Assembly: GCA_014654035.1 (NCBI GenBank)
Contig: JACWDQ010000001.1
Location: forward strand, 62,001 to 126,000
Source: Pelagibacterales bacterium SAG-MED19
GTDB lineage: Bacteria > Pseudomonadota > Alphaproteobacteria > Pelagibacterales > Pelagibacteraceae
DNA length: 64,000 nt
Reading direction: 5' to 3'
In this document: in pieces, positions 54,888 through 64,000 of the stretch
Layout of the letters: each line of letters opens with the position of its first letter
Position numbering within the stretch: the first letter of the stretch is position 1
Translations under genes and position numbers: made by a program
The notes under the pieces: generated by a model
What the model saw: the letters and a program-made list of their open reading frames with translations, nothing else
What the model was told of the DNA's origin: nothing
Database searches by the model: none

Positions 54888-55643
54888 TTAAATTATTTGG
54901 CCACCATGAAATCTTAAAATTTCTTTTCTTCTTTTTGAAAATGGATTAATTCTAGAAAAAATTCCAATTGGGTCAAAAGTTAATACAATTACTTTTCTTG
55001 GTTCAATTCTATATTTAAAATTCGAATGAATTCCATGAGTATCAAAAAGTATTACATCTCCAGGTTTCCCCCAGATTTCATCAAGTTTTTTTGAGTTATC
55101 TGGAAAACGAGTTTCTTCATAATTAATCCATGTTTTAATTCTCATTTGATCACCTTTTAAATAGTATATTGGATGAGATTCTTTAGTATTCTTTGAAATC
55201 CAAATATAAACTTTTAAGCGATTATATTTACTGTCATGATGCGGCTGCCATGAAGAAGTATTTGATTTTTTATTATCTAAGTAATGATATTGATTTTGAT
55301 ATGTATATAAAGATTTTCCTAAATAGCTATTAATTATACCCATTATATTTTTATCTTTAAGATATTCAAAAATTTGATTTAAATCTTGTTTATCTAAATC
55401 ATTTGTTTGAACTACATTTACATCTTTATTATCAAATTTATGATATTTTTTTTCTAAATATTCTAAAAAATCTAATGGTATTTTACTATGAAAATGCAAA
55501 TATCCGTCATTAATCAAATCTTTAAGATTTTCTTTATCTTTAAATAAAAGATAACTAATTTTTAAAATTTTTTTCTTATATACGAAAAAAACTTGTCTAA
55601 GAATTTGTACCCATAATTTTGAAAATCTTAAAAATATATTCAT
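54888..55643 (-). CDS. Phytanoyl-CoA dioxygenase (PhyH)-like protein
   Basis: The 251-residue product resembles Fe(II)/2-oxoglutarate dioxygenases of the PhyH group. The iron facial triad can be read as His135-x-Asp137 (SWQPHHDSKYNRLKVYIWIS) with a distal His at 203 or 206 (DTHGIHSNFKYRIEPRK), followed by Arg216 for 2-oxoglutarate. The N-terminus is hydrophobic and basic without a clear signal peptide. The ATG at 55643 is chosen over a TTG one codon earlier. A second PhyH-like gene lies at 60.4 kb in the same glycan region. Substrate unknown; hydroxylation of a lipid, sugar or peptide is possible. Confidence 0.75.
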   Translation of the reverse strand: MNIFLRFSKLWVQILRQVFFVYKKKILKISYLLFKDKENLKDLINDGYLHFHSKIPLDFLEYLEKKYHKFDNKDVNVVQTNDLDKQDLNQIFEYLKDKNIMGIINSYLGKSLYTYQNQYHYLDNKKSNTSSWQPHHDSKYNRLKVYIWISKNTKESHPIYYLKGDQMRIKTWINYEETRFPDNSKKLDEIWGKPGDVILFDTHGIHSNFKYRIEPRKVIVLTFDPIGIFSRINPFSKRRKEILRFHGGQII

Positions 55644-55793
55644 CAAAAAAAATTATATATCAAATATTATATATTATCATTATTTGTTCAATCATCTTTA
55701 TTCTAAAAATTGAATAATATTTTTATTTAAATAAATAAGATATATATATAGTTTTTAGATTAAATAAGTTAAAAATTACAAATTTTAACAATT

Positions 55794-56890: not shown

Positions 56891-58105
56891 ATGAAAATCC
56901 CAAAAACAATAAAAATAAAGAAATGCAGACTGTGTAAAAATAAAAAACTTAAACAAATTTACAACTTTGGGAATCATTTTGTAAGTAATTTTGTTAATAA
57001 ATCTGAAATTAAAAAAGGTGTTAAGGCACCATTAAACTTAGTTTACTGTAAAAATTGTCAATTACTCCAGTTAGAACATTCTGCACCACAAGAAATAATG
57101 TATAAAAAATTTTACTGGTATAAATCAGGGATTACCAAAACTATGCGAGATGGTTTGAAAGAACTTTATCAGGATATTAAAAAAAATTGTAAAATAAAAC
57201 CAGGTGATGTTATCCTTGATATTGGTGCTAATGATGGAACTTTTTTAAAATATTTCAAAAAAGATCGTATCATTACAATCGGATGTGAGCCTGCAAATAA
57301 TCTAAAAAATGAATTAAAAAAAAATTGTCATTATATGATTAATGATTTTTGGCATACTAAACATATGAAAAAAATACCTACTAAACATCAAAAACTAAAA
57401 GTAGTTTCTGCGATAGGTATGTTTTATGATTTAGAAGATCCGTCTGAATTTATAAAACATGCTGCAGACGCACTTGATGATGATGGTATTTTTGTTGCTC
57501 AATTAATGTGTTCTCATTCAATGTTTAAAACTAATGATTTAGGAAATATTTGTCACGAACACTTAGAATACTATTCTTATAATTCACTTAAATATTTATT
57601 TGAAAAAAATGGATTAAAAATATTTAAAATGAGTGAAAATAAAATTAATGGAGGTTCATATAGAATTTATTGTAAAAAAAATATTAAAAAATCCATAAGA
57701 TATAAGGAACAAGCGAGTTATAGTGAAATAATTAAATTTGTAAAAAGAGTTAAAGATAACAAAAAAAGAACTTTAAAATTTATCAAAGAAAATAATCAAA
57801 AGGGAAAGAAAATATTTCTTTATGGAGCTTCAACTAAAGGAAATACTTTATTACAGTATTATGGATTAACTAATAAAGAAATTCCATATGCTGCAGAACG
57901 AACAAAAACAAAATGGGGTAAATATACAATTGGTTCTGGAGTAAAAATATTATCTGAGAAAAAAGCTAGAAACCTAAAACCTGATTATTTCTTTGTTATG
58001 CCGTATGGCTTTATTAAAGAATTTATTAAAAGAGAAAAGAAGTGGCTTAAAATGGGTGGAAAGTTTATATTACCATATCCCAAATTTAAAATTTTGAATA
58101 AATGA
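56891..58105 (+). CDS. Zinc-finger class I C-methyltransferase (sugar-methylating type)
   Basis: The 404-residue, three-part protein starts with a Cys4 zinc site (Cys12, Cys15, Cys53, Cys56), as in C-methyltransferases such as TylC3 and NovU. The central methyltransferase has VILDIGANDGTFLKYF as motif I, and HEHLEYYSYNSLKYLFEKNG is the conserved catalytic His/Glu region. The C-terminal Rossmann-like domain has IFLYGASTKGNTLLQYYGL. Characterised members methylate carbon 3 of dTDP- or other nucleotide-linked keto-sugars. It overlaps the GT2 gene by 4 bp, so it belongs to a glycan operon. Confidence 0.85.
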   Translation: MKIPKTIKIKKCRLCKNKKLKQIYNFGNHFVSNFVNKSEIKKGVKAPLNLVYCKNCQLLQLEHSAPQEIMYKKFYWYKSGITKTMRDGLKELYQDIKKNCKIKPGDVILDIGANDGTFLKYFKKDRIITIGCEPANNLKNELKKNCHYMINDFWHTKHMKKIPTKHQKLKVVSAIGMFYDLEDPSEFIKHAADALDDDGIFVAQLMCSHSMFKTNDLGNICHEHLEYYSYNSLKYLFEKNGLKIFKMSENKINGGSYRIYCKKNIKKSIRYKEQASYSEIIKFVKRVKDNKKRTLKFIKENNQKGKKIFLYGASTKGNTLLQYYGLTNKEIPYAAERTKTKWGKYTIGSGVKILSEKKARNLKPDYFFVMPYGFIKEFIKREKKWLKMGGKFILPYPKFKILNK

Positions 58106-58797
58106 TTGGAAAAACTTCTATTATCTTATCTACATATAACGAAGCAAAAATTATTAAAAATACTGTTAAAGAAATTTTTGAAAAAGTTAAAAATGTTGAA
58201 ATAATTTTAGTTGACGATAACTCAAACGATGGAACAATTGAACAGTTAAAAAATTTTAAAAATGAAAATTTAAAAATTTATGAAAGAAAGCATAGAGGAT
58301 TAGCATCAGCTTTTTTATTAGGGATGATAAATACAACAGGGGATTATATTGGGTGGACTGATTCCAATATGCCACAACTGACGAAATATTTTGAAGAAAT
58401 GAAAATAAAATTAGACGAATTTGATTTCGTTCTGTTGTCGAGATATGTTGAAGGCGGGGGTGATCAAAGATCATCATTGAGAATTTTGTCTAGCAGAATT
58501 TTAAATTCATTTTGTAGAATTATTTTAGGTAATGAGATTAAAGACTATACCAGCGGTATTTTTCTTATGAAAAGAGAAGTTTTAAATAAAGGTGTACCAA
58601 TTGCTTATGGCCATGGGGAATTTTTTATCGAATTTTTATATAAACTAAAAAAAAATAATGTAAAAATTTTAGAACTTCCTTATGTGCAGCCTCCCGATGA
58701 AGAAGGAAGTAAAACAGCCTCAAGTTTACTTAGATTTTTAGTATTAGGTTTAAATTATTTTATTAGAATACTTATTATTAGATTTAGAATAAATTAA
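58102..58797 (+). CDS. Glycosyltransferase family 2 (polyprenyl-phosphate sugar transferase-like)
   Basis: The 231-residue GT-A enzyme shows SIILSTYNEAKIIKNTVKEI, ILVDDNSNDGTIEQLKNF (nucleotide-binding Asp pair) and GLASAFLLGMINTTGDYIGW. The DSN motif replaces the usual DAD at the metal site (WTDSNMPQ). It resembles dolichol-phosphate mannosyltransferase-like enzymes, which charge a polyprenyl carrier or transfer to a glycan. The short C-terminal LGLNYFIRILIIRFRIN is hydrophobic and may sit on the membrane. It is co-transcribed with the C-methyltransferase, cupin and aminotransferase genes. Confidence 0.83.
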   Translation: MIGKTSIILSTYNEAKIIKNTVKEIFEKVKNVEIILVDDNSNDGTIEQLKNFKNENLKIYERKHRGLASAFLLGMINTTGDYIGWTDSNMPQLTKYFEEMKIKLDEFDFVLLSRYVEGGGDQRSSLRILSSRILNSFCRIILGNEIKDYTSGIFLMKREVLNKGVPIAYGHGEFFIEFLYKLKKNNVKILELPYVQPPDEEGSKTASSLLRFLVLGLNYFIRILIIRFRIN

Positions 58798-58802
58798 AAA
58801 TA

Positions 58803-59234
58803 ATGATTGAAAAAATTTTTAATAAAAAAAAACTATATGCATTAATTGTTAGAAGTAGCTATAAAAAAAAGAAAGGAGTGAGTTTTTTTACAGATGATAA
58901 AGCCACCCAACAATTTGGCTACATGAATCATAAAAAAGGCTATGATATTTTACCCCATAGACATAATAAACGTTATTCAAAAATATTTTGGACCACCGAA
59001 GTTATAATCATACTTGATGGAATTTTAAGGGTAGATTTTTATAATGATCAAGAGAAATATCTCCATAGTAAAAAACTTTATAAAAATGATTTAATTATGT
59101 TATCTGCAGGAGGACATGGTTTTAAAGTTTTAAAAGATGTAAAGATGATTGAGGTAAAACAAGGACCATACTCTCTAACAATGGATAAAATAAAGTTTAA
59201 TCAAGTAGATGAAAAAAAAATTAAAATCAAATAA
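58803..59234 (+). CDS. Cupin-fold protein of a sugar-modification cluster
   Basis: The 143-residue beta-barrel protein has a cupin pattern: the metal-type residues in YDILPHRHNKRYSKI, then EVIIILDGILRVDFYND, then LIMLSAGGHGFKVLKDVKMI and EVKQGPY. Similar proteins occur next to DegT aminotransferases in polysaccharide clusters, though I recognise only the fold. The HxH of FdtA-type 3,4-ketoisomerases is not found in its usual place. The 3' end overlaps the aminotransferase gene by 26 bp in another frame, so the two are coupled. Confidence 0.72.
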   Translation: MIEKIFNKKKLYALIVRSSYKKKKGVSFFTDDKATQQFGYMNHKKGYDILPHRHNKRYSKIFWTTEVIIILDGILRVDFYNDQEKYLHSKKLYKNDLIMLSAGGHGFKVLKDVKMIEVKQGPYSLTMDKIKFNQVDEKKIKIK

Positions 59235-60354
59235 AAATATTTTTATCCCTGTAAGCAAACCTTATGTGTCAAATGAGGATGTAAAATCGATAAATAAAGT
59301 TCTCAAGAAAAGCTGGATATCATCAGATGGTCCAGAAGTAGAAATTTTTGAAAATAAATTTTCTAAAAAAATTAATAGAAGGTATTCAATTGCTGTATCC
59401 AATGGAACAGCCGCTTTAGAAATAGCCATAAAAGCTTTAGGAATAAAAAAAGGTGATGAAGTCATCATTCCAAATTTTACAATTATTTCGAATGCAATTG
59501 CTGTAATTAAACAAAATGCTAAACCAGTTTTAGTAGATTGTGACCTAGACACTTGGAATATGAAAATTGAAGATATTCAAAAAAAAATTACAAAAAAAAC
59601 AAAAGCATTAATGATCACACATATTTATTCATTTGCTAATGATATGGATAAGATTTTGAAAATTTGTAAAAAAAATAATATTTATTTGATTGAGGATGCT
59701 GCAGAAGTGATTGGACTTAAATATAAAAATAAACCTTGTGGTTCATTTGGAGATATTAGCACCTTTAGTTTTTATGCTAATAAACAAATTACAACTGGAG
59801 AAGGTGGTATGATTTCAACTAATAACCCAATTTTGAGAGATAAATGCAAAGCCTTAAGAAATCTTTGCTTTGGTAAAAAAAATAGATTTAATCATGACGA
59901 TATAGGATGGAACTATAGAATGACTAATATTCAAGCATCACTAGGTATCAGTCAATTAAAACGTTTGAGTACAACTGTTAAAAAGAAAATGTATATAGGA
60001 AATTATTATTTTAAAAAACTTGGTAAAAATAATCATATACAAATGACGCCCCCACAATCATTGAATTCAAAAAATATATACTGGGTAGTTGGTATACTAA
60101 TTAAAGATAAAAAAATATTGGCATCAAATGTAATACAAAATTTGAGATCACATGGTATTGGGGCAAGACCTTTTTTTTGGCCAATGAACGAACAGAAAAT
60201 TTTTAAAAAACTAAAAATATTTAATAATACAAAATATCCTAATTCAAACTATTTAAGTAGATATGGATTTTATATACCATCTTTTTTAAAAATTAAGAAT
60301 TCTGAAATGGATTATATTGTAGAAATCTTAAATAAAATATTTAAGATCAAATAG
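59209..60354 (+). CDS. DegT/DnrJ/EryC1/StrS aminotransferase (perosamine-synthase-like)
   Basis: The 381-residue PLP enzyme is of the sugar-aminotransferase group. IPVSKPYVSNEDVKSINKVL and WISSDGPEVEIFENKF start the protein. SVSNGT-type and IEDAAEVIGLKYKNKPCGSF segments follow, with Asp163 near the PLP nitrogen. The PLP Lys is Lys192 in FYANKQITTGEGGM. The C-terminal GWNYRMTNIQASLGISQL also fits. It should add an amino group to a 4-keto-6-deoxy nucleotide sugar. Whether the donor is GDP- or dTDP-linked is open, and RmlA/B in this window could supply the latter. It overlaps the cupin gene by 26 bp. Confidence 0.88.
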   Translation: MKKKLKSNKNIFIPVSKPYVSNEDVKSINKVLKKSWISSDGPEVEIFENKFSKKINRRYSIAVSNGTAALEIAIKALGIKKGDEVIIPNFTIISNAIAVIKQNAKPVLVDCDLDTWNMKIEDIQKKITKKTKALMITHIYSFANDMDKILKICKKNNIYLIEDAAEVIGLKYKNKPCGSFGDISTFSFYANKQITTGEGGMISTNNPILRDKCKALRNLCFGKKNRFNHDDIGWNYRMTNIQASLGISQLKRLSTTVKKKMYIGNYYFKKLGKNNHIQMTPPQSLNSKNIYWVVGILIKDKKILASNVIQNLRSHGIGARPFFWPMNEQKIFKKLKIFNNTKYPNSNYLSRYGFYIPSFLKIKNSEMDYIVEILNKIFKIK

Positions 60355-60376: not shown

Positions 60377-61309
60377 ATGAAAAATAGTGATATCTTTAAT
60401 GAAAAATTTATTAACATTGATACTAAATCAATAGCTTCAAAATTAGACAACGAAGGTTTTTTTTTCATTGAAAACGCATTTAATAAAAATTTTTTAGACT
60501 CTCTCTTAGCTGAAATTAATGATAATAAGTTCTCTGTAAACAAAAATTGGACATCAGGTGTTTACACTGAAAAACAATATTATGTAAAACATTTACTTGG
60601 CTGCTCAAAATCATTTTATTATTTATCATCTAGTTCAGGTGTTTTTGATATATGTGATCAATATTTTAAAAACGAGTATAGACTTAAAGCTTTTAGATAC
60701 TACGAAACATATTACGCACATAAAATGGAGTGGCATACAGATAATAAAATAGCCAAAAAAGCTGGAAACAAGTTTAGTGAAATTCCTGGAATTATTTTTA
60801 TCGTTTATTTAGATGATGTTGAAGATGGTGAATTTCAGTACGTTAAAGGATCTCACAAAATCTCAAATGTAGAAGCTTATAATGTTTATTCAAATAAACA
60901 GATTTTAGATGAATTTAAAAATGATGTTATTTCCTTTAAGGGAAAAAAAGGAGATTTGATAATTTATAATACTTATGGCATTCATAGGGCCAAACCAGTA
61001 ATCAATAATAAAAATTTTGTAAGAAAAAGCCTCTTCTTTCAAATTGATTCAAGTTTATCATCAGCAGAACCATCGTTATTAAATCCCTCATACTTTGATA
61101 AAATGGATGATAAAACTTTAAAATATTTCGGTTTTGGTTTGCCTAGCGAGTCTTCAACTTATCCAGACAGTAATCTCAACAGATTACCTTTAAAAATATT
61201 TTTTAAAGAAATATTTTTAACATATATTCCTTATAAACTTCCAAGAGTAATATACATGATGTTTCCAAACATACTTAGAAAGTTTTTTAAAAGGTTTTTA
61301 AAATCTTAG
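60377..61309 (+). CDS. Phytanoyl-CoA dioxygenase (PhyH)-like protein
   Basis: The 310-residue protein is a probable Fe(II)/2-oxoglutarate dioxygenase. The facial triad reads His120-x-Asp122 (HKMEWHTDNKIAKK) and distal His203 (NTYGIHRAKPV), with Arg216 (NFVRKSLFFQID) for 2-oxoglutarate. FIVYLDDVEDGEFQYVKGSH is the typical strand before the insert. It is encoded 22 bases after the aminotransferase gene, so it is likely in the same operon and could hydroxylate a glycan lipid or sugar. It is longer than the PhyH-like protein at 54.9 kb and not a close duplicate. Confidence 0.8.
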   Translation: MKNSDIFNEKFINIDTKSIASKLDNEGFFFIENAFNKNFLDSLLAEINDNKFSVNKNWTSGVYTEKQYYVKHLLGCSKSFYYLSSSSGVFDICDQYFKNEYRLKAFRYYETYYAHKMEWHTDNKIAKKAGNKFSEIPGIIFIVYLDDVEDGEFQYVKGSHKISNVEAYNVYSNKQILDEFKNDVISFKGKKGDLIIYNTYGIHRAKPVINNKNFVRKSLFFQIDSSLSSAEPSLLNPSYFDKMDDKTLKYFGFGLPSESSTYPDSNLNRLPLKIFFKEIFLTYIPYKLPRVIYMMFPNILRKFFKRFLKS

Positions 61310-61330: not shown

Positions 61331-64000
61331 ATGATTTTCATATTTTCTTTTTTAACTGGAATATTTTTTAATCAAATAAATATATTCAAAAACATTAAAA
61401 TTTATTATTCGATAATGTTTTTATTATTTTTATTATCTTTATTCTATATTTCTATTGATGTAATTACTGGTGATGGATTTACTCGATCATTTTGGCTTCA
61501 TTTGCAAAGCGATTTAACTGGTGCTACTTATTTACCTTATCTTTTAATATTCTTTTTCAGATCATTATTTTTTATTTTATCTTTTGTAATAGGTTTTGTA
61601 ATACAAAAAAAAATTTTTCGATTTTTATTAATTAAGAATTATTATTTTAGGATGATAATATTAATATTTGTTATTTTTTTTAATCCTGCATCAATGTCTT
61701 TAATTAAAAGTTTTAAAATGACATATGGTACTTCTGGTATTAAGAATAATCTTAATTTTAGTGATTATTATAAAAGTGTAAATAATTTGCCCGAAGATTT
61801 TATCAATAGAGATTTAATCGTAATATCAGTAGAAAGTTTAGAAAGAACATTTTATACTAATGAAGAATTAAAAAAAATTTTAGATTTATCTCTTCTTAAG
61901 AGAAAAGACTTAATTGATTTTACTAATATAAATCAAGCTAATGGTTACACAGATTGGACGATAGCTGGCCTTGTAGCTGCTAACTGTGGCTTACCATTGG
62001 TTAATTATAGGTTTTATTCAAACTTCAATTGTTTGACTGACTTGCTGTTCAAAAAAAAATACAACTTAATGACCATTCAAGGTACTTTACCAGAGTTCGC
62101 TGGTAATGGAAATTTTTATAAAATTCATAATGTAAAAAAAATAATTGGACTCAAAGAGATATCTGATCATTTTTCTAAAAAGAATAAAAAAATAGTATCG
62201 AGTCGATGGGGTGTCTATGATCATTTTGTTTTAGAATATGCTTCTAATCAAATTAAAGACTTAGAAAATCAAAATAATCCTTATGCTGTTTGGATAAATA
62301 CAGTTGATACACACCCACCAAATGGACTGCTATCTAATAATTGTAAAAAAATAAGCAAAGATATATCATTAAATTTTTTAAAGGTAGTTCATTGTACTGA
62401 TTTATATCTCAATAATTTTATTAATCAGATTAATAAATATGATAAAAAAAAGAATAACTTAATAATTGTTCATTCTGACCATTTGTTAATGCATTCTCCA
62501 ATTACAAAAAAATATTTTAAAGATAATAATAAAAGAAAAAATTTATTTTTGGTTATAGATCCATATAAAAACAATGGGAAAAAAGAAGTAGATATCAGTG
62601 GCAATACTTTAGATATTCCAGCAACCATTTCTGATTACTTACGAGGTGACAAAAAGTTGGGTTTAGGCGTTAGTTTATTGTCAAATAATGATAAAAAAAT
62701 TCAATCTTTATCAAGTAGCAAACAAAATTTATCTCAAATTATTAAAATTTTTGAAAATGATTTAAATAATATTAATAAAAAAATAATTTTTTTGAATGGA
62801 AAAATTTTAACAGATGAAAACTTAATTAATTTCATCGAGTTTACATCTGGTTTTAGAGTCAAGCTACCCCTTCTTTCTGTAGATAATAGAATGGTTGAAA
62901 TTATAACTAATGCTAAAGGTCTGCCTATGGAAAAAATTGAGACAATGATTTTTAATGAAATTATTAAAAAAAATAAACAAATAAAATTTGAAGCAATAGG
63001 AAGTTGTGATGAAATTAATTTTGCTTTAATCGCAAATAAGATTGAATGTAGATTTATGTATATAGATGTTAATGAAAAAGATGAAATGATTAATATTAAG
63101 ATCTATCCTTATAATGACTACTTTGATAAAAATATATTTATTAGTAACAATATAAACAAAAAAAAATTTATTTCGAGAATAAACGAATTAAATGATAACC
63201 CATATAATTTTAATATTTTAGTAAAAAACTTAAGAGAGGATATTAAAGAAAACTTAAGTAAGTTTGCACCTTGGATATTTCCAACAATAAAGAAATTATA
63301 TTTATATTCAAAATATAATTATAAAAAAATATATTTTAAATTTACTAAAGACAATAATATTCTAGAAAAAGAATTTTTATTAAAGGATGATACTTTTATA
63401 GCACAAGCAGGGGGTGCTATTGATGGTTATATCCATACTAACTCATTAGAAGCTTTAAACAAAAATTATGATTTAGGAGCCAAATATTTCGAACTTGATT
63501 TAAACTTAACCTCAGACAATAAAATTGTCGCTGTTCAAGACTGGCAATCTTGGAAAAAACGTACAAACTATGAAGGAAATATTCCACCAACATTAGAAAC
63601 TTTTTTAATATATAAAATTGATAATAAATTTTCACCTTTAGATTATTCAAGAATTTTAGATTGGTTTTTGAGCCATCCAGATACTACATTAATTACTCAC
63701 AAACTTAATGACGCTTTAATTATAAGAGAAATATTTAAAAAAATTCAGAATAACCTAATTATTAGATTAGGAACTAACGACTCTATTAATAAAGCCCTTT
63801 CAAAAGATTTTTCTAAAATTTTGATCTCAGAAAAAATAATATGGGAAAATAACTTTTCGAAAAATTATTTAAACTATCTGATTTATAAAAATAATGTTCC
63901 ATATGGATTTTATGTTAATAAAAACACAATTTATGAAAAACCTGATTTTTTTAAAACTGCAAAATCTTTAGGTTTTAAAGTACATGTATATCAAGAAAAG
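61331..64000 (+). CDS. OpgB/MdoB-type phosphoglycerol transferase fused to a GDPD-like domain (3' partial)
   Basis: One frame stays open from the ATG at 61331 to the window end (890 codons, no stop). The N-terminus has about three membrane helices (within residues 1-120). A sulfatase-fold catalytic domain follows: Glu168 in VISVESLERTF, the nucleophile Thr210 in GYTDWTIAGLVAANCGLPL, VDTHPPNG, and Asp383-His384 in IVHSDHLLMHS. This pattern matches OpgB, which moves phosphoglycerol from phosphatidylglycerol to periplasmic glucans. Residues about 430-680 are a poorly recognised region. From about 688 a glycerophosphodiesterase-like domain begins (AGGAIDGYIHTNSLEALN, ELDLN at 721-725). Two expected catalytic His positions are Gln692 and Gln736. 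It follows the PhyH-like gene after 21 bp. Confidence 0.85.
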   Translation, partial: MIFIFSFLTGIFFNQINIFKNIKIYYSIMFLLFLLSLFYISIDVITGDGFTRSFWLHLQSDLTGATYLPYLLIFFFRSLFFILSFVIGFVIQKKIFRFLLIKNYYFRMIILIFVIFFNPASMSLIKSFKMTYGTSGIKNNLNFSDYYKSVNNLPEDFINRDLIVISVESLERTFYTNEELKKILDLSLLKRKDLIDFTNINQANGYTDWTIAGLVAANCGLPLVNYRFYSNFNCLTDLLFKKKYNLMTIQGTLPEFAGNGNFYKIHNVKKIIGLKEISDHFSKKNKKIVSSRWGVYDHFVLEYASNQIKDLENQNNPYAVWINTVDTHPPNGLLSNNCKKISKDISLNFLKVVHCTDLYLNNFINQINKYDKKKNNLIIVHSDHLLMHSPITKKYFKDNNKRKNLFLVIDPYKNNGKKEVDISGNTLDIPATISDYLRGDKKLGLGVSLLSNNDKKIQSLSSSKQNLSQIIKIFENDLNNINKKIIFLNGKILTDENLINFIEFTSGFRVKLPLLSVDNRMVEIITNAKGLPMEKIETMIFNEIIKKNKQIKFEAIGSCDEINFALIANKIECRFMYIDVNEKDEMINIKIYPYNDYFDKNIFISNNINKKKFISRINELNDNPYNFNILVKNLREDIKENLSKFAPWIFPTIKKLYLYSKYNYKKIYFKFTKDNNILEKEFLLKDDTFIAQAGGAIDGYIHTNSLEALNKNYDLGAKYFELDLNLTSDNKIVAVQDWQSWKKRTNYEGNIPPTLETFLIYKIDNKFSPLDYSRILDWFLSHPDTTLITHKLNDALIIREIFKKIQNNLIIRLGTNDSINKALSKDFSKILISEKIIWENNFSKNYLNYLIYKNNVPYGFYVNKNTIYEKPDFFKTAKSLGFKVHVYQEK

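Follow-up and report, generated by a model that had tools for sequence, protein, structure and literature searches.

The window, a 64,000-nucleotide stretch of DNA from a SAR11-type ocean bacterium (G000:C1:62001-126000), ends inside a gene whose product joins an OpgB-type sulfatase-fold domain to a glycerophosphodiesterase (GDPD) barrel. This fusion architecture is widespread in genomes and unreported in the literature that we searched, and the window protein is an unusual member in which the GDPD is most likely dead. Our literature search found no paper joining OpgB or a phosphoglycerol transferase with a GDPD, and a SAR11/GDPD paper on an Arctic genomic island mentions no such fusion.

Two domains in one open frame

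The frame starting at position 61331 contains no stop through the 2670 bases to the window end at 64000. This had been read from the sequence alone, and it was borne out by an ORF check and by extension of the contig, which placed the stop codon at G000:C1:126133-126135, 135 bases past the window end. The protein is thus 934 amino acids long, and 890 of its 934 codons fall within the window (61331..64000; all features described here are on the plus strand). Neither a stop nor a frameshift is present in 62600-63360. HMM and structure searches recovered both domains, with Pfam hits above the curated cut-offs, and the claim of the sequence-only reading that OpgB-type and GDPD-like domains share one frame therefore stands; the OpgB-type domain comes first and the GDPD follows, which makes the protein an OpgB-GDPD fusion. 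It is the sole PF03009 and the sole PF00884 match of its genome, which is 84% complete. A chance, chimeric or assembly join was rejected, because a 60%-identical protein of 928 amino acids with the same domain order occurs in a second genome of the genus (G250) and the architecture is found elsewhere too.

The N-terminal membrane part (residues 1-141; 61331..61753) aligns with the membrane part of OpgB and has about four predicted helices, at residues 2-16, 22-46, 67-95 and 104-131 of the structure model (pLDDT 50-76). It leads into the OpgB-type sulfatase-fold domain (residues 142-455; 61754..62695), in which the Pfam Sulfatase family PF00884 matched residues 218-437 (E 4e-14, 53 bits against a curated cut-off of 25). 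Among NCBIfam models the best match was PRK03776, which describes OpgB of the E. coli type (E 9e-58, residues 26-527). Against this OpgB/MdoB equivalog model (NF003000) the score was 195.9 bits; since this is far under its cut-off of 574 bits, we regard the fusion protein as an OpgB homologue and not as an OpgB equivalog. Identity to the annotated opgB of E. coli was 33% over residues 142-453 (tblastn, E 9e-33). The model of the domain, with pLDDT mostly 85-98, matched the Vibrio alkaline-phosphatase-superfamily protein 3lxq with Z 30.8, LtaS and LtaP with Z about 30, YejM with Z about 24, and GacH with sn-glycerol-1-phosphate with Z 22.5.

The active-site residues named in the sequence-only reading proved to be conserved. 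Glu168 (61832..61834) and Asp383-His384 (62477..62482), the predicted metal ligands, are invariant in all 31 sulfatase rows of the alignment, and the position of Thr210 (61958..61960), the predicted nucleophile, is Thr in 27 of these rows and Ser in the other 4. Across 20 conserved columns the domain departs only once (F318Y). The fold and the Glu/Thr/Asp-His set of sulfatase-fold glycerol-phosphate transferases of the OpgB/LtaS/GacH type are present, and a periplasmic phosphoglycerol transferase activity of this domain is likely on these grounds.

The middle region that follows (residues 456-684, about 230 residues; 62696..63382) matched no Pfam family, had low confidence in both structure models, and was found in full only in the window protein, in G250 and in AG-337-D17. 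It is succeeded by the GDPD TIM barrel, which spans residues 685-890 in the window (63383..64000) and runs to residue 934 in the contig. Pfam GDPD PF03009 matched residues 700-884 (E 1.7e-7, 32 bits against a curated cut-off of 23.6), and the barrel model matched solved GDPDs with Z 17-21 and other TIM barrels with about 12; by gathering score and fold it belongs to the GDPD family. A GDPD fold also occurs beside a glycan enzyme in a multidomain beta-1,3(4)-glucanase (PDB 7wwc/7ww4), whose GDPD-like barrel matched residues 685-934 with Z 19.9. In a viral structure library, most matches were GDPD barrels from phages and giant viruses.

Recurrence and genomic setting of the pairing

The sequence-only reading had known of no described single protein joining the two domains, but the joining is not peculiar to this DNA, and fusions occur in many bacteria. 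Within SAR11 we found them in G250 (AG-899-J23, locus L070), AG-337-D17, G288, G488, G603, AG-894-I19 and AG-898-M09. In G078, G451 and G579 the two domains are encoded by overlapping neighbouring genes, where the G451 GDPD starts with a lipoprotein-like signal and the G579 copy is cut short or interrupted. An intact stand-alone GDPD occupies a 261-amino-acid frame in G411, and two partial GDPDs lie at contig ends. Overall the gene is patchy, with matches in 7 of 297 family genomes and 16 of 399 genus genomes, weak hits included.

Among 80 GDPD-motif loci, 25 were scored as fusions, SAR11 included; one of these is interrupted by a stop (L094) and two have weaker sulfatase matches (L123 and L149). 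The fusion-bearing taxa comprise Bacteroidota, Gammaproteobacteria, a Sulfurospirillum MAG and a deltaproteobacterial MAG, with Vibrio tetraodonis (L077) and Pontibacter sp. (L090) as named cases outside SAR11. One of the 80 loci is an overlapping pair (L140). As the loci were found via the GDPD, their counts are uninformative on how often OpgB carries a GDPD; they came from an alignment query, and a contig scan with the single window protein returned none. In 36 of the 80 (within L078-L148, nearly all Flavobacteriaceae or other Bacteroidota) a stand-alone GDPD of about 440 amino acids has a sulfatase-family gene of about 800 amino acids on the opposite strand, 1.3-2.2 kb off, in conserved synteny. 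Sulfatase and GDPD genes lie side by side in G1010, from another class of the same phylum. A plasmid search returned OpgB-type matches only, none covering 80% of the query.

The window protein, G250 and AG-337-D17 grouped with 100% bootstrap in the trees of both domains. In the sulfatase tree the fused proteins fell into more than one clade: support of 100/100 went to a 19-row set that holds most fusions and excludes the clade of the window protein, but the root region was weak. Repeated fusion or splitting is possible from these trees. The recurrence of fusions and overlapping pairs, one of them with a lipoprotein-like signal on the GDPD, suggests that the two domains share a periplasmic substrate.

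In the window, the fusion gene follows a co-oriented glycan cluster whose genes overlap or are separated by short gaps. The cluster begins with a sugar C-methyltransferase (56891..58105; PF08484 and PF08421) and a family 2 glycosyltransferase (58102..58797; PF00535), continues with a small cupin-like protein that is FdtA/WxcM-like by eye only and has no Pfam match (58803..59234) and a DegT/DnrJ aminotransferase (59209..60354; PF01041, E 1e-102), and closes with a PhyH-family dioxygenase directly upstream of the fusion gene (60377..61309; PF05721). An ORF before the cluster, at 54888-55646, also resembles a PhyH-family dioxygenase by eye, with no Pfam hit. Past the window, L002:9515-11377 encodes a 620-amino-acid polytopic membrane protein with no Pfam match, of GT-C type by eye only, and an NAD kinase follows downstream (L002:11392-12165). 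An NAD kinase (L023:435-1205) likewise stands beside the G411 pair (L023:1429-3624), in which 7 bp separate the GDPD from a divergently oriented membrane protein whose sulfatase match is weak and falls below the cut-off; surface genes may vary in this region.

Glycosyltransferase, Wzt or nucleotide-sugar genes are found near seven related loci (L090, L145, L146, L063, L122, G250 and G078), and the G288 and Vibrio loci lie outside glycan clusters. OpgG (PF04349) was found in none of 61 genus genomes, most of them incomplete and the genome of the window among them, with E. coli as positive control. Classical OPG glucans therefore seem an unlikely acceptor.

The altered active site of the GDPD barrel

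Four catalytic or metal-site residues of the barrel are replaced in the window copy. Gln692 (CAA; 63404..63406) and Gln736 (CAA; 63536..63538) take the places of the first and the second catalytic His, both of which are His in all other covering rows of the 85-sequence alignment. His790 (CAC; 63698..63700) replaces the third metal acid, an Asp in all other covering rows, and Arg812 (AGA; 63764..63766) replaces a Glu that is conserved in the other covering rows bar two divergent ones with Gln. The two remaining metal acids, Glu721 and Asp723 (63491..63499), are retained in the alignment. When a profile of 18 relatives was compared with S. aureus GlpQ, the first His corresponded to that of IAHRG, ELD to EID and the second His to that of MHD, and the conserved Asp of the relatives lined up with the third acid.

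The window copy is alone among the 85 GDPD sequences in lacking both catalytic His and the third metal acid; of the His pair and three metal acids of active GDPDs of the GlpQ/LpgD type, only Glu721 and Asp723 remain. No closer carriers of the Gln/Gln form were found in the family, genus and relatives samples. Conservation reaches at least 95% in 30 columns, of which the window copy departs at five (H692Q, H736Q, D790H, E812R and F814G). The chance probability that at least four of the five fall within seven active-site columns is about 0.006 (hypergeometric, with a column set partly picked post hoc). The loci of the relatives were retrieved with motifs spanning the ELD and (H/Q)DW segments, which introduces some selection at these columns but none at H692, D790 and E812. 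Sequencing error is an unlikely source of the replacements, which are four separate codon changes within an open frame.

S. aureus LpgD still folds normally when mutated to H93A or to H51A/H93A but is then deficient in LPG hydrolysis, and with H51A alone it retains significant activity (PMC10404611). His43 and His85 of B. subtilis GlpQ are the presumed acid and base (PMC7086022). Since the His pair and the third acid are replaced, and given these mutant and mechanism data, the window GDPD is most likely catalytically dead. Glu721 and Asp723 together with His790 could still bind metal.

Proposed function and alternatives

The explanation that we prefer, and hold with about even confidence, is that the protein works in the periplasm as a phosphoglycerol transferase on a surface glycan and has retained the dead GDPD for binding or as a structural element; the substrate, the acceptor, the lack of GDPD activity and what the dead domain does are all inferred. 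OpgB transfers phosphoglycerol from phosphatidylglycerol to glycan in the periplasm (PMC3818809). In the same manner, the window protein would sit in the inner membrane with its OpgB-type domain in the periplasm, where Thr210 would take the glycerol-phosphate headgroup from phosphatidylglycerol, releasing diacylglycerol, and the glycerol-phosphate would then be handed on to a glycan of the surface or the periplasm. Most relatives have a fused or neighbouring GDPD with a complete active site, which would work on that same glycan or on its phosphoglycerol and presumably trims or turns over such groups. Because GlpQ is sn-3 specific and phosphatidylglycerol headgroups are sn-1 (PMC7086022), the GDPD family of the relatives must differ from GlpQ in stereospecificity or cleave a different substrate. 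As the window barrel cannot use the canonical mechanism, its role is most likely binding or structural: without catalysing a reaction, it would hold on to the acceptor glycan or bring the transferase into position, and the protein would only add.

The protein resembles several known systems in part. Like OpgB/MdoB, the phosphoglycerol transferase I of E. coli, it has a membrane part and a periplasmic sulfatase-fold domain with the active-site residues kept, but it carries an attached GDPD barrel and comes from a genus sample without OpgG. The Gram-positive glycerol-phosphate transferases LtaS/LtaP and GacH, whose acceptors are Gram-positive polymers or cell-wall polysaccharide, share the fold, but they have no GDPD and are about 15% identical to the window protein. 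GlpQ/UgpQ-type GDPDs and S. aureus LpgD share the TIM barrel, whereas the window copy has lost the His pair together with the third acid and is joined to a transferase. The other OpgB-GDPD fusions (L070, L077 and L090) have the same two domains in the same order, and L070 is 60% identical throughout, but they keep the GDPD catalytic residues. Pseudoenzyme precedents are YejM/PbgA and the plant GDPD-like SHV3 proteins, in which an enzyme fold with an altered active site belongs to an envelope or wall protein. YejM has the sulfatase fold in common with the window protein; the precedents depart from it in the domain that is altered or in overall architecture, and they serve as analogy only.

The replaced residues could also be read as decay, with the GDPD a remnant whose activity is unneeded and which persists for lack of time or because truncation would destabilise the protein. 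The loss of four catalytic residues fits this reading, as does a somewhat faster GDPD on the window branch (tree branch 0.39 against about 0.3 in the sisters). The frame is nevertheless open, 25 of the 30 conserved columns are kept, and the 60% identity of the GDPD to the G250 protein is like that of the membrane part (58%), the sulfatase domain (67%) and the middle region (51%). The crude dN/dS of the GDPD between the window and G250, about 0.2 with synonymous sites near saturation, also speaks against decay, which we consider unlikely; between G250 and AG-337-D17 (82% identical) the crude value was about 0.13. The pattern fits a constrained scaffold with mild relaxation, as judged from one window-type sequence at near-saturated synonymous sites. 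Less probable still, in our view, is a bifunctional editor whose GDPD would still act as a diesterase through other residues such as His790. The GDPD fold is intact, Glu721 and Asp723 are kept, and the H51A mutant of LpgD kept much activity, but replacing both His of LpgD made it deficient in LPG hydrolysis (PMC10404611). The window barrel has neither His, carries His for the third acid and Arg for the conserved Glu, whereas the His pair and the Asp are unchanged in all relatives.

A further alternative dispenses with a glycan acceptor and invokes phospholipid or phosphorus economy: the sulfatase-fold domain would strip the phosphatidylglycerol headgroup for lipid remodelling or phosphate recovery, and the GDPD of the relatives would process the released glycerophosphodiesters. 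We judge this improbable, since the window gene lies directly after a sugar cluster, relatives stand among glycosyltransferases and the closest named family is a transferase, even though OpgG was not found in the genus genomes and the G288 relative adjoins dihydroxyacetone kinase-like and sugar-transporter genes (read by eye). The sequence-only reading had placed the protein in a system that adds, edits or senses phosphoglycerol on a surface polysaccharide. A polysaccharide setting is plausible, and several related loci show one as well; editing by GDPD cleavage in this cell is not supported, because the four residues are replaced in the window copy only. Addition is still likely, and a sensing role is conceivable.

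Returning to the transferase with a dead GDPD module, a wider and more tentative proposal is that these proteins may form an undescribed, widespread class of envelope proteins, in which a phosphatidylglycerol-dependent transferase and a diesterase would together set how much phosphoglycerol surface glycans carry. In one SAR11 lineage the diesterase might have turned into a binding pseudoenzyme that guides the transferase, so that the protein would no longer edit but only add. That fusions and overlapping gene pairs recur is a strong hint at one common periplasmic target for OpgB-type transferases and GDPDs, a link that we did not find described. The window protein offers a natural loss of one half in an intact frame, so that the division of labour is testable against a 60%-identical relative with a complete site. 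If the preferred explanation is true, some SAR11 cells would put phosphoglycerol on a surface glycan without the classical OPG gene opgG.
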